DNA of 64,000 nucleotides from Variovorax sp. OV700 (GTDB lineage: Bacteria > Pseudomonadota > Gammaproteobacteria > Burkholderiales > Burkholderiaceae_C), in NCBI RefSeq assembly GCF_900099805.1, contig NZ_FNDR01000003.1, positions 372,001-436,000 on the forward strand, given 5' to 3'. The translations under genes and the position numbers were made by a program. The notes below the pieces were generated by a model. That model searched no databases. It was given only the letters and a program-made list of their open reading frames with translations, and was not told the origin of the DNA. The first letter of the stretch is position 1. The number at the start of each line of letters is the position of its first letter. Positions 20,891-56,784 of the stretch are shown here, piece by piece.

Positions 20891-21094
20891 ATGACACAAG
20901 AGCAGGACGACCCCCTCTGGAGCGCCGCATGGCAATGGGTGCAACGCGAGCACGACCGCGAGAACTTCGATGCGGCCGCACGCGCCGAGATGACGGCCTG
21001 GCTGGTTGCCGACCCTCTGCATCGCAAGGCCTACGACAAGGCAGCCCGCTTGTGGCTGCTGGCCGGCCTGGTGCCGCCTTCCGCTTCGGAGTGA
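20891..21094 (+). CDS. Stand-alone DUF4880 (FecR N-terminal) mini-protein 1
   Basis: 67 residues. The sequence matches the DUF4880 domain at the cytoplasmic end of FecR-type anti-sigma factors: paired tryptophans (LWSAAWQWVQREHD), a central WL-ADP-HRKAYDKA block and LWLLAGL. It stops there: there is no transmembrane helix and no periplasmic FecR domain. It lies between an ECF sigma gene and MbtH, in the same orientation. I infer it binds that sigma factor in the cytoplasm, either as an anti-sigma or as a pro-sigma co-factor, without any envelope signal. Two more such genes are at 56308 and 56569. Confidence 0.75.
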   Translation: MTQEQDDPLWSAAWQWVQREHDRENFDAAARAEMTAWLVADPLHRKAYDKAARLWLLAGLVPPSASE

Positions 21095-21193
21095 ACAGAT
21101 CCCGTACTGAAACGTCTTGTTGAGCAGGAGCGAACAAATGGCCCACCGGGCCTCTGGCTCGCTCTTTCTGTTCAACCGCATAAGGACGTATCC

Positions 21194-21448
21194 ATGTCGA
21201 CGAGCTGCTTCGATCGCGAAGACGAGACCTTCATTGTTCTGGTCAACCACGAAGACCAGTATTCCATCTGGCCCCACTGGAAGGCCGTGCCAAAGGGGTG
21301 GAACGCGGTCGACGGCGTGAAGGGCGACAAGAAGACCGTGCTCGCCTACGTCGAAGAGGCGTGGACCGACATGCGACCCCGCTCGCTGCGCGAGTGGATG
21401 GCGCAGCAGGAAAAAAATCCGACGAACACGCAAGCCGCGGCCGGTTGA
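21194..21448 (+). CDS. MbtH-like protein
   Basis: 84 residues with the MbtH signature: [24 protein letters not shown] and a late [13 protein letters not shown]. It starts at the ATG at 21194 behind AAGGAC. MbtH proteins bind NRPS adenylation domains and are needed for their solubility or activity. It is the first biosynthetic gene of the operon, and the thioesterase gene starts at or just after its stop. The family's conserved tryptophans are present. High confidence. Confidence 0.95.
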
Positions 21449-21453
21449 CGCGC

Positions 21454-22191
21454 GTGGAGACGAGCGTCTCGCTGCTGTGCCTGCCGTGCGCGGGCGCCAG
21501 CGCCACGATGTACCTGCGCTGGTGCCGCCTGCTGCCGCGCTGGATCCGCGTCGTGCCCGTGGAGCTGCCGGGCCGCGGGAGCCGGCTGGCCGAAAGCCCG
21601 GTGGAGGATTTCGACAGCCTCGTTGCGCAACTCTGCGTGGAGCAGGCCGAAGCCATGCGCGGCGAGTTCGCGATCTTCGGCCACAGCATGGGCGCATTGC
21701 TCGCCTACGGCATGGCCTGCCGATTGCGGTCGATGGGGCGCGCATTGCCTGTTGCGCTACTTGCTTCGGGCAGCGCCGCGCCGTCTCGGCGTGATCCTGA
21801 TCGCTTCGCGGACAAGACCGATGACGCCTCACTGATCGCCGACTTGCGCAAGCAGGGTGGAACGCCGGAAGAAGTGTTTGCCAGCGCCGAGTTGATGCGC
21901 ATCACGCTCGACGTGCTCGGCGCCGACTACCGCGTTTGCGAAGGCTTTCGATACGCCGGCGAGGCACTCCTGCCGATGCCGGTGCACGTCTTCGCGGGAC
22001 GCGACGACGACATCGAAGCCGAGCGCATCTACGCGTGGTCGGCCGAGGCGCGGGGTGCCTTTTCGCTCGACTGGTTTGGCGGCGGGCACTTCTTCATCCG
22101 CCAGCAGGAAACGGAATTTCTGGCGGCGCTCTCGCAGCGCCTCGGCAAGGTCGACGCACGGGATCGCCATGCATCTCACGCCCTGGCCTGA
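21454..22191 (+). CDS. Type II thioesterase of the NRPS system
   Basis: About 245 residues, alpha/beta hydrolase. The N-terminal LLCLPCAGAS and ELPGRGSRL motifs, the nucleophile elbow FGHSMGALLAY (Ser about 71) and the late GGHFFI with the catalytic His are those of GrsT/RifR-type editing thioesterases, which free misprimed carrier domains. The start is either a TTG at 21445 overlapping the MbtH stop or the GTG at 21454; I prefer the latter. The 3' end overlaps the phosphopantetheinyl transferase gene by 23 bases. Confidence 0.92.
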   Translation: METSVSLLCLPCAGASATMYLRWCRLLPRWIRVVPVELPGRGSRLAESPVEDFDSLVAQLCVEQAEAMRGEFAIFGHSMGALLAYGMACRLRSMGRALPVALLASGSAAPSRRDPDRFADKTDDASLIADLRKQGGTPEEVFASAELMRITLDVLGADYRVCEGFRYAGEALLPMPVHVFAGRDDDIEAERIYAWSAEARGAFSLDWFGGGHFFIRQQETEFLAALSQRLGKVDARDRHASHALA

Positions 22192-54606: not shown

Positions 54607-56298
54607 ATGACAACTACCACCACAGGCAACGGCGCCGAGATCGGGCGCCTGCTGAAACCCTTTCTTCCGTGGATCGTGCTGTCCGCGGTCACGGGCGTCG
54701 GCGCCGGTGCCGCCACGGTCGCGCTGCTCGGCACCATCAACCGGGTGCTCAACCAGCCCGGCGGGCTGGCGGGTGGCCTGTTGCTGACCTTCATCGGCCT
54801 GTGCGGCGTGGCGCTGTTCGGGCGCATGGCGTCGGACGTGTCGACCAACTTCGTCGGGCAGCGCCTGGTGGCCCAGGTGCGCAAGAGCCTGGCGCAGAAG
54901 ATTCTCTCGGCGCCCATCGATGCGCTGGAGCGCTACCGCACGCACCGCCTCATGCCGGTGCTGTCGCAGGACGTGGACATGATCAGCGACGTAGCCTTTG
55001 CACTGTCCGGAACGCTGATTGCGCTGGCCGTGGCGCTGGGCTGCCTGAGCTATCTCGCGTTTCTTTCACTGCCGTTGTTCGGCCTGATGCTGGTGGCGCT
55101 GGTGATCGGCATCACCGTGCAGCTCATGGCGCAGATCCGCGGCGAGGCCGGGTTCTGGAAGGCGCGCGAACAGGAAGACCAGTTGCACAAAGCCTACCGC
55201 GCCATCAGCGAAGGCGCGAAGGAGCTGCGCATGCAGCGCACCCGCCGCACGCGCATGTTCGCGGGGCAGATCGAACGCATCGTCGACACCATCCGCGTGG
55301 TCAACGGGCGTGCGATCAACACCTATGTGATTGCCACCGCTTTCGGCTCGGCGCTGTTCTTTCTGTTGATCGCGCTGATCCTGGGCTGGGCGGCGTTCCG
55401 CACGACCGAGCCTGCGGTGGTCAGCGGCTTCGTGCTGGTGCTGCTGTTCCTCAAGGGGCCGCTGGACCAGATCGCGCTCACCTTGCCCGGCGTGGGCCGC
55501 GCCAAGGTCGCCTTCCAGCGCATCGGCGACCTGTCGGCACGCTTTGCCACGCCAGAACCGCACCTGCACCTGGAGCGCGCGTCCAACGGCGTGATTTTGA
55601 AGAACGAGATCGGCATGCGCGGCGTGCGTTATGCCTTCGACGCACCCGAGGGCGGCGAGGCCTTCACGCTCGGGCCGATCGACCTGAAGCTGCGCCGCGG
55701 CGAGATGGTGTTCGTGGTGGGCGACAACGGCTCGGGCAAGACCACGCTGATCAAGCTGCTGCTGGGCCTCTATGCGCCGCAGGCGGGCGAGGTTCTGATC
55801 GACGGTTCGGTCGTGAAGCCCGAGGGCCGCGACGACTACCGGCAGCTCTTCACCACGGTGTTCTCGGACTTCTACCTGTTCGAAGATCTGGTAGCGGGCG
55901 AAGAGAGCGAGGGCGGTGCCGGCATGGAGGTGCTGCCCGAAACGGCCCTGCCTTATCTCGAACGGCTGGAGATCGCCCACAAGGTTAGCCTGAAGAACGG
56001 CGCGTTCAGCACCACCGACCTCTCGACCGGCCAGCGCAAGCGGCTGGCGCTGGTGCACGCCTACCTCGAAGGCCGCCCGGTGCTGGTGTTCGACGAGTGG
56101 GCCGCCGACCAGGACCCGACCTTCCGCCACCTCTTCTACACCGAGCTCTTGCCCGAGCTGCGTGCCAAGGGACACCTGCTGGTGGTGATCTCGCACGACG
56201 ACCGCTACTTTCACCTGGCCGATCGCGTCATCACGATGCATGCGGGCAAGATCGCGGAAGACAGGGTGCGCGAATCGCGGGAAAGCCTCGCCGCGTGA
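54607..56298 (+). CDS. Siderophore exporter, fused ABC transporter (PvdE/SyrD type)
   Basis: A 563-residue half-transporter. Six membrane helices span about residues 15-310. The ATPase follows: Walker A GDNGSGKTTLIK (about 379), signature DLSTGQRKRLAL and Walker B VLVFDEWAADQDP. The length and the DEWAADQDP ending match the cyclic-peptide exporter family with PvdE, which moves siderophore precursors across the inner membrane. It would act as a homodimer. It is divergent from the FhuF-like gene, and a DUF4880 mini-gene starts nine bases after its stop. Confidence 0.92.
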   Translation: MTTTTTGNGAEIGRLLKPFLPWIVLSAVTGVGAGAATVALLGTINRVLNQPGGLAGGLLLTFIGLCGVALFGRMASDVSTNFVGQRLVAQVRKSLAQKILSAPIDALERYRTHRLMPVLSQDVDMISDVAFALSGTLIALAVALGCLSYLAFLSLPLFGLMLVALVIGITVQLMAQIRGEAGFWKAREQEDQLHKAYRAISEGAKELRMQRTRRTRMFAGQIERIVDTIRVVNGRAINTYVIATAFGSALFFLLIALILGWAAFRTTEPAVVSGFVLVLLFLKGPLDQIALTLPGVGRAKVAFQRIGDLSARFATPEPHLHLERASNGVILKNEIGMRGVRYAFDAPEGGEAFTLGPIDLKLRRGEMVFVVGDNGSGKTTLIKLLLGLYAPQAGEVLIDGSVVKPEGRDDYRQLFTTVFSDFYLFEDLVAGEESEGGAGMEVLPETALPYLERLEIAHKVSLKNGAFSTTDLSTGQRKRLALVHAYLEGRPVLVFDEWAADQDPTFRHLFYTELLPELRAKGHLLVVISHDDRYFHLADRVITMHAGKIAEDRVRESRESLAA

Positions 56299-56307
56299 AG
56301 GAGGGGA

Positions 56308-56556
56308 ATGAAAGACAAGACCCACAAGAGCCGGCCTCCCGATGGCCCCGCCTTCAACGTCGCCTGGACGCTCTTCTGCACGCTGCATGACGAGCCCTCG
56401 CCCGAGCGCGCGGAGCAACTCGTGCGCTGGCTCGGCGTCGATCCCGAAAATATCAGCGCGCTGGACGACGTGCTGACCCTGTGGGCGTTGACCGGGGCTG
56501 CGCTCATGAAGCCTGCGCTGGAGGAGGCGCGGCATGAAGAGAAGCGCCTGCAGTGA
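56308..56556 (+). CDS. Stand-alone DUF4880 (FecR N-terminal) mini-protein 2
   Basis: 82 residues. The core (AWTLFCTLHDEPSPERAEQL, RWLGVDPENISALDDV, LTLWALTGAAL) follows the DUF4880 pattern: helix, WL-DP turn, helix with LW-L-G. No membrane helix. It is nine bases after the exporter stop, so it is probably co-transcribed with it. It is convergent with mini-protein 3, with only 12 bases between. I infer a cytoplasmic sigma-binding role, as for the one at 20891. Confidence 0.7.
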   Translation: MKDKTHKSRPPDGPAFNVAWTLFCTLHDEPSPERAEQLVRWLGVDPENISALDDVLTLWALTGAALMKPALEEARHEEKRLQ

Positions 56557-56568
56557 AGGGTTGCGGCG

Positions 56569-56784
56569 CTACTTCCGCAAGTCGCGCCACTCGGCTGCGA
56601 TGCCGCCAAGGGCATCCCAGCGCCGCCGTGCTTCCTGGGCGGCGGCCGCATGTTCGGTTGACCTGCTGCGCCACCGGGCCAAGGCCAGGCGCGCGGCAAC
56701 CGCGGCGTCGTGCGGCGCGCTTTCGCTCTCGACGATGAGCGCGAGCGCGCGTTCGATGAGCTTTTCGTCCGGCGCGCTTGCCAC
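56569..56784 (-). CDS. Stand-alone DUF4880-like mini-protein 3
   Basis: 71 residues with a GTG start. The pattern is the most divergent of the three (ERALALIVESES, ALARWRSRSTEHAAAAQEA, RRWDALGG) but keeps the WRS-E-AAA turn and the final W-L-G helix. It starts 10 bases after the stop of the right ECF sigma gene on the same strand, exactly where fecR usually follows fecI. No transmembrane or periplasmic part exists downstream, as the opposite-strand gene ends there. Confidence 0.65.
   Translation of the reverse strand: MASAPDEKLIERALALIVESESAPHDAAVAARLALARWRSRSTEHAAAAQEARRRWDALGGIAAEWRDLRK

Follow-up and report, generated by a model that had tools for sequence, protein, structure and literature searches.

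In this study, we analysed a 64 kb stretch of Variovorax sp. OV700 (hereafter the window, 64,000 nucleotides of a 6.48 Mb genome). It contains a siderophore non-ribosomal peptide synthetase (NRPS) cluster with two genes for FecI-like extracytoplasmic function (ECF) sigma factors, here called sigma 1 and sigma 2, and three small genes, mini1, mini2 and mini3, each encoding a stand-alone version of the cytoplasmic N-terminal domain (N-domain) of FecR. In the classical system, this domain is freed from the membrane only after an outer-membrane receptor has sensed the ferric siderophore. In the clade to which the window belongs, sigma 2 is paired with a FecR that is truncated to the N-domain, both sensor parts are lost, and what remains is under selection. 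Surface signalling thus appears to have been given up at both ends, while the sigma factor and the cytoplasmic domain were kept under purifying selection. With moderate confidence, we propose a FecI/FecR-type control that is confined to the cytoplasm, in which each Fur-controlled sigma factor would be produced together with a free, activating N-domain.

The three genes were confirmed as genuine protein-coding genes under selection, and their products are assigned to the type of the FecR cytoplasmic domain (DUF4880). Their products (67, 82 and 71 amino acids for mini1, mini2 and mini3, respectively) do not match PF04773 and contain neither a transmembrane helix nor a periplasmic FecR domain, which bears out the initial annotation of three cytoplasmic-only FecR N-domains. 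As single sequences, mini1 scored 24.0 bits against DUF4880 (PF16220; cut-off 25) and mini2 15.2 bits, and mini3 gave no match. Across the families, matches at E≤1 were obtained for 18/18, 10/16 and 16/34 aligned sequences of mini1, mini2 and mini3, respectively; the mini3/FecR N-domain comparison comprises 34 of 36 sequences, with the full-length ones trimmed to the N-domain, and two fecR genomes in which the N-domain was not located (G093 and G001) do not enter the N-domain counts. The mini2 profile matches the mini1 family with a probability of 97.4%, and mini3 is a homolog of the N-terminus of the full-length FecR that is encoded at the same position in other genomes. As a rough guide to the rarity of such short forms, 3 of roughly 150 strong DUF4880 matches fall in frames of less than 150 amino acids, among the matches listed. 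When PDB sequences were searched with profiles of mini1 and mini2, nothing credible was matched; only fold comparison gave a match, as the models show the three-helix fold known from the cytoplasmic domain of PupR (PDB 5cos, 5cam), with the mini3 model lying nearest to PupR among the chains compared.

Selection on the reading frames is evident from the ratio of nonsynonymous to synonymous differences (pN/pS). The in-frame medians are 0.20 for mini1 (9 equal-length sequences, 36 pairs), 0.26 for mini2 (7 equal-length sequences, 21 pairs) and 0.17 for mini3 (14 of the 17 sequences); no mini1 or mini2 pair reaches 1, and 0/89 informative mini3 pairs do so. Shifted-frame controls for mini1 and mini3 gave medians of 1.06 to 2.87, and in the two shifted frames of mini3 all informative pairs (82/82 and 84/84) had values of at least 1.

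Sigma 2 is present in 36 of 101 genomes of the same genus, and the gene directly behind it encodes either mini3 or FecR in all 36. A full-length FecR of 338-370 amino acids is found in 19 of them; the other 17, including that of the window, encode mini3 alone (71-77 amino acids), and its open frame ends at nearly the same codon throughout. In the midpoint-rooted sigma 2 tree, the 17 mini3 genomes occupy one side of a branch with support values of 100/99, corresponding to a single change. By parsimony, mini3 is probably derived from a full-length FecR that lost its membrane and periplasmic parts. When all 17 sequences of the clade are compared, the median pN/pS is 0.17 for mini3 and 0.21 for sigma 2, and the corresponding values in the FecR genomes are 0.33 (sigma 2), 0.37 (FecR N-domain) and 0.40 (remaining FecR). 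A different short form was seen at L225 and L226 (genomes G843 and G851), where a hydrophobic C-terminal stretch and a stop codon come after a FecR N-domain, with an open frame of 207-216 amino acids nearby; this form seems to retain a membrane anchor and no periplasmic part.

The receptor side was compared in the same genomes. Among the matches listed, an STN signalling domain is found within 14 kb of sigma 2 in 19/19 FecR genomes, in 11 of them immediately after fecR, some 1.4 kb from sigma 2, and in 8 at 6.4-13.8 kb. A renewed search of the 17 mini3 genomes detected no STN match near sigma 2 in any of them; the nearest one on the contig that carries sigma 2 is at a distance of about 172 kb, and several genomes have their STN matches on other contigs. 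Within the window no STN was found, and the cluster receptor consists of Plug and barrel only. Because the window has no STN receptor, classical surface signalling is absent there, as the initial annotation had maintained.

The cluster receptor is 58-59% identical to STN-bearing receptors of four genomes (G086, G016, G009, G017) and 39-40% identical to those of four others (G088, G118, G087, G119), and shares the signal-peptide start with all eight. The distance from the signal-peptide methionine to the plug motif is 155-157 amino acids in 8/8 STN receptors examined versus 66-76 amino acids in 15/17 mini3 genomes, leaving a gap of about 80 amino acids between signal peptide and plug relative to the STN-bearing orthologs. 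Two mini3 genomes stand outside this count: G080 has no receptor match in the stretch examined, and in G025 the match begins at residue 166. The N-terminal part of the G025 receptor (L251) lies in a different frame from the rest, reflecting either an assembly error or a real break. Pfam recognised an STN domain in each of the two relatives tested but none in the receptor of the window. In the receptor tree (midpoint root), the STN-less receptors form a single group beside the 58-59% identical STN receptors (93/92), and the receptors directly behind fecR in 11 genomes are approximately 24-33% similar to the cluster receptor where matched (42% in G096). The cluster receptor is an ortholog of the STN-bearing receptors and has probably lost its STN domain, the direction again being given by parsimony. 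Since about 6 kb separate the receptor gene from mini3 in the window, the paired loss suggests two deletions rather than one.

Unlike the truncation-derived mini3, mini1 occurs widely as a stand-alone protein. When named genomes were scanned with the mini1 alignment, records from the window's own genome possibly being excluded, 52 loci were obtained; a sigma 1 homolog is located directly upstream of mini1 in all of them, with a gap of 38-197 bases between the two matches, and the mini1 frame ends 0-28 codons past the match, which corresponds to a short protein at every locus. The proposal of one mini-protein directly behind each sigma gene stands, with either mini3 or FecR encoded behind sigma 2 in the genomes compared. 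MbtH is encoded downstream of mini1 in 48/52 loci, and two of the four loci without it (L155 and L163) are near a contig end. The closest named relatives of the window genome belong to Variovorax, with 97% identity of mini1 in Variovorax sp. Root318D1. The hosts also include Acidovorax, Paracidovorax, Cupriavidus, Roseateles, Rhizobacter, Bordetella, Achromobacter, Thauera, Zoogloea, Aquabacterium and Ideonella. An order-wide survey with mini1 gave matches in 17/399 genomes, the strong ones in short frames and the weak ones, one mini2 aside, in frames of 341-544 amino acids, the size of full-length FecR. As judged by eye, the sigma 1-mini1 gene order also occurs at L227, in a genome of another order. 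It recurs in Eleftheria terrae, where the mini1 counterpart is annotated as a DUF4880 protein, and the product of a 933-bp gene on a Rhizobium plasmid, annotated as FecR, has an N-terminal part that is 40% identical to mini1.

The sites in front of both sigma genes look like Fur boxes, and Fur control is putative. The AT-rich site upstream of sigma 1, AGTAATAATTCTCATTTG, is related to that upstream of sigma 2 and is exact in 6/7 close Variovorax loci (L126-L132), with one mismatch in L131; more distant variants are present in L140 and L153, and the site was not found in L151. Compared with the E. coli Fur consensus, it matches at only 11/19 positions. The site upstream of sigma 2, AATAAGAATAATTCTTATT, is a perfect palindrome that is exact in 16/17 mini3 genomes and has one mismatch in the 17th; among the 19 FecR genomes it is exact in 2, has one mismatch in 12 and is more divergent in 5. 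A conserved non-coding block between mini1 and mbtH is near-identical in the window and in L126-L132 and is the window's sole full match to the promoter form searched, an OrbS-type form; it is a candidate for a sigma 1 promoter.

In contrast to mini1 and mini3, mini2 has no constant position next to a sigma gene; it is a relative of mini1 with variable neighbors. Its gene is located directly 3' of the exporter gene in those mini3-clade genomes inspected, directly 5' of it in G014, G007 and G010, directly 3' of an ornithine monooxygenase gene in G031 and L200 and about 1 kb 3' of one in G011. In G009 and G017 another small copy lies in tandem with it, and G032 and G029 carry it as well. A close sigma 2 is missing genome-wide from four carriers (G011, G029, G031 and G032): two lack a match at E≤1e-10 and the other two have matches of only 35-40% identity, the G029 assembly being only 86% complete. 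The initial annotation had tentatively tied the third mini-protein to the exporter and asked whether the trio is conserved in related clusters. The tie is only partly borne out: mini2 adjoins the exporter gene in several genomes but the ornithine monooxygenase gene or other genes in others, and four carriers lack a close sigma 2. The sigma-adjacent position is shared by mini1 and mini3, not by mini2. Outside Variovorax, strong mini2 matches were obtained in Zoogloea, Roseateles oligotrophus, Thauera, Acidovorax facilis and Rhizobacter (32 genomes searched, covering 32/52 named loci plus the own genome, with L134 excluded). A 670-amino-acid open frame in G020 had raised the suspicion of a mini2-ABC exporter fusion, which was rejected, because the two lie in different frames. 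Tandem small DUF4880-like genes near sigma 2 or the exporter were also noticed at L052 (2844-3349), L055, L203/L223 and L208/L224; these pairs are mini2 and a second copy. Our guess is that mini2 is an accessory copy that possibly also binds sigma 1.

The proposed control would start with low iron, which would lift Fur and allow sigma factor and mini-protein to be produced together. The free N-domain would then bind region 4 of the sigma factor and stabilise or activate it, as FecR1-85 does for FecI, and the complex would drive the siderophore cluster. Iron level alone would set the output, and the ferric siderophore would not be sensed; the mini-proteins would be born free and need no release from the membrane. 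mini1 would serve sigma 1 alike, as the widespread form of the arrangement. Fur control, co-transcription, binding and activation are what we infer here. In E. coli, FecI is activated in the absence of ferric citrate by a FecR with a nonsense mutation at codon 82 and by FecR fragments as short as 51 residues; the N-terminal region is the part that binds region 4 of the sigma factor, and both FoxR1-93 and FiuR1-91 act as pro-sigma proteins (PMC9249621). FecR85 activates constitutively and does not need RseP (PMC8144685), and the normal FecR cascade ends in an N-terminal fragment of such extent (PMC9249621, PMC8144685). The mini-proteins match the extent of these activating fragments (51 to 85 residues), which makes a co-activator role likely. 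In addition, a pure inhibitor that cannot be released would render sigma 2 useless, yet sigma 2 and mini3 are kept, which also favors a co-activator. More tentatively, and at slightly less than even confidence, we suggest that the signalling line was dismantled at both ends, in two genes, with the FecR domain retained as an obligate co-activator, and that sigma-mini pairs form a common class of FecI control in siderophore clusters, confined to the cytoplasm and driven by iron via Fur instead of by the ferric siderophore.

Several observations speak against the co-activator proposal. The profile likeness of mini3 is weak, with probabilities of 19.6% to mini1 and 3% to mini2; the Foldseek E-values of mini1 to PupR are weak as well (1.3 and up), and PupR was not among the matches that Foldseek alone listed for mini3. 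A scan of the window for the Fur consensus gave no site within 3 mismatches, so that the Fur-like boxes rest on their conservation, and a scan of the window for the PvdS-type iron-starvation (IS) box found none; for these two reasons, the regulons and Fur control are putative. Furthermore, FpvR1-89 represses FpvI and PvdS, both of which co-purify with FpvR1-67 (PMC4256889), and the N-domain of Leptospira LIC12756 acts as an anti-sigma factor in the logarithmic phase (PMC13118517).

The last two results also support the idea that the mini-proteins are soluble anti-sigma factors, relieved by proteolysis, by dilution with excess sigma factor or by competition among the mini-proteins; with three related domains beside two sigma factors, an exchange of partners would be feasible. 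We regard this as the main alternative, though a less likely one, because the mini3 clade retains no membrane or receptor input and because sigma and mini genes lie close by on the same strand, presumably co-transcribed, as suits a co-factor made with its sigma factor. That the mini-proteins chiefly shield the sigma factor from degradation, with little effect on its activity, appears improbable to us; sequence data cannot separate such a chaperone from a co-activator. Finally, mini3 is clearly a truncated FecR and the receptor has lost its signalling domain too, but the persistence of an open frame with a nearly identical end codon in 17 genomes and the pN/pS values, low in frame and high in both shifted frames, make it very improbable that a fecR gene has died and left mini3 behind as a decaying remnant.

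Coordinates of the features within the window
Feature	Position	Strand	Basis
Fur-box-like AT-rich site 5' of sigma 1 (putative)	20149..20166	+	read directly
sigma 1, FecI-like ECF sigma factor	20254..20799	+	Sigma70_r4_2 43.7 bits, Sigma70_r2 34.8 bits (Pfam)
mini1, stand-alone FecR N-domain (DUF4880)	20891..21094	+	
Conserved non-coding block mini1-mbtH, candidate ECF promoter	21092..21119	+	
MbtH-like NRPS accessory protein	21194..21448	+	Pfam MbtH 69.3 bits
TonB-dependent siderophore receptor without STN	48099..50387	-	Plug and barrel only
ABC exporter	54607..56298	+	Pfam ABC_tran 89 bits, ABC_membrane 32.5 bits; probable export direction
mini2, stand-alone FecR N-domain-like	56308..56556	+	DUF4880
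mini3, FecR cut down to N-domain	56569..56784	-	GTG start, uncertain
sigma 2, FecI-like ECF sigma factor	56795..57427	-	Sigma70_r4_2 54.4 bits
Palindromic Fur-box-like site 5' of sigma 2 (putative)	57492..57510	-	exact in 16/17 mini3 genomes

The cluster comprises sigma 1, mini1, MbtH, thioesterase-like and phosphopantetheinyl transferase (PPTase)-like open reading frames (ORFs), NRPS-like ORFs and the TonB receptor. It also encodes N-monooxygenase-like, acetyltransferase-like and formyltransferase-like proteins, FhuF, the ABC exporter and mini2, with mini3 and sigma 2 on the opposite strand to mini2 and the exporter. The thioesterase, PPTase, NRPS and acetyltransferase labels were assigned by eye from the translations, and the product is presumably variochelin-like. 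The sigma 1 ORF is open from a TTG at 20215, and the ATG at 20254 was preferred as start by eye. Both region 2 and region 4 of sigma 1 exceed the Pfam cut-off; in sigma 2, region 4 does so and region 2 reaches 23.5 versus 24 bits. FecI-related NCBIfam models match both sigma factors only below the cut-off.

Elsewhere in the window, a protein with LysM and FecR (PF04773) domains is encoded at 4146-5498 (+), with no DUF4880 part and no adjoining sigma gene, and a YadA-type trimeric autotransporter adhesin with head repeats, stalk and anchor at 8034-10427 (+). A second ORF with the appearance of a TonB receptor is located at 14341-16573 (-; ORF 14341-16539); just upstream of it, at 16555, lies the site that comes closest in the window to the Fur consensus (14/19).

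The gene pair itself is already in print. In siderophore loci of Halomonas and Stutzerimonas, an ECF-sigma and DUF4880 pair is listed, for Halomonas also with MbtH, thioesterase and PPTase (PMC10291192, PMC13037486). The passages concerned name the pair in passing and say nothing about its function, its evolution or a loss of surface signalling, and PMC13037486 places it under cell-surface signalling. A literature search, with most subscription journals outside it and partial texts as its basis, found no description of a natural stand-alone FecR N-domain regulator, of the role of the sigma-DUF4880 pair or of a paired FecR/STN loss. The debate on whether FecR-type domains are inhibitors or required activators has so far drawn largely on engineered fragments, and the cluster adds a natural truncation that is kept across one clade of 17 genomes, with a matching receptor loss. 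If the proposal is true, siderophore producers can dispense with sensing their own siderophore and leave the control of production to iron level alone, and a role would be suggested for small siderophore-cluster proteins that are annotated as DUF4880 only. The mini-proteins also offer short, soluble, natural sigma partners for structural work.

Like the FecI/FecR/FecA system, the cluster places a FecR N-domain gene behind a FecI-like sigma gene, and mini3 resembles experimentally truncated FecR (FecR1-85 and the codon-82 nonsense mutant) in extent and gene order. Unlike that system, the mini-proteins lack transmembrane and periplasmic parts as well as an STN receptor and would need no proteolytic release, the free domain itself being the gene product. 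PupR, in contrast to the mini-proteins, extends into the membrane and the periplasm. The PfrI/CirA/serobactin system of Herbaspirillum seropedicae likewise has an iron-starvation sigma gene by mbtH and siderophore genes, but no anti-sigma homolog was reported for it and the STN transducer CirA is retained (PMC6037834). The PvdS/FpvI/FpvR system for pyoverdine shares with the cluster two sigma factors for one siderophore system under FecR-type control; however, FpvR is one membrane protein that serves both sigma factors (PMC4256889), whereas the cluster encodes a small soluble domain for each sigma factor and a third copy.

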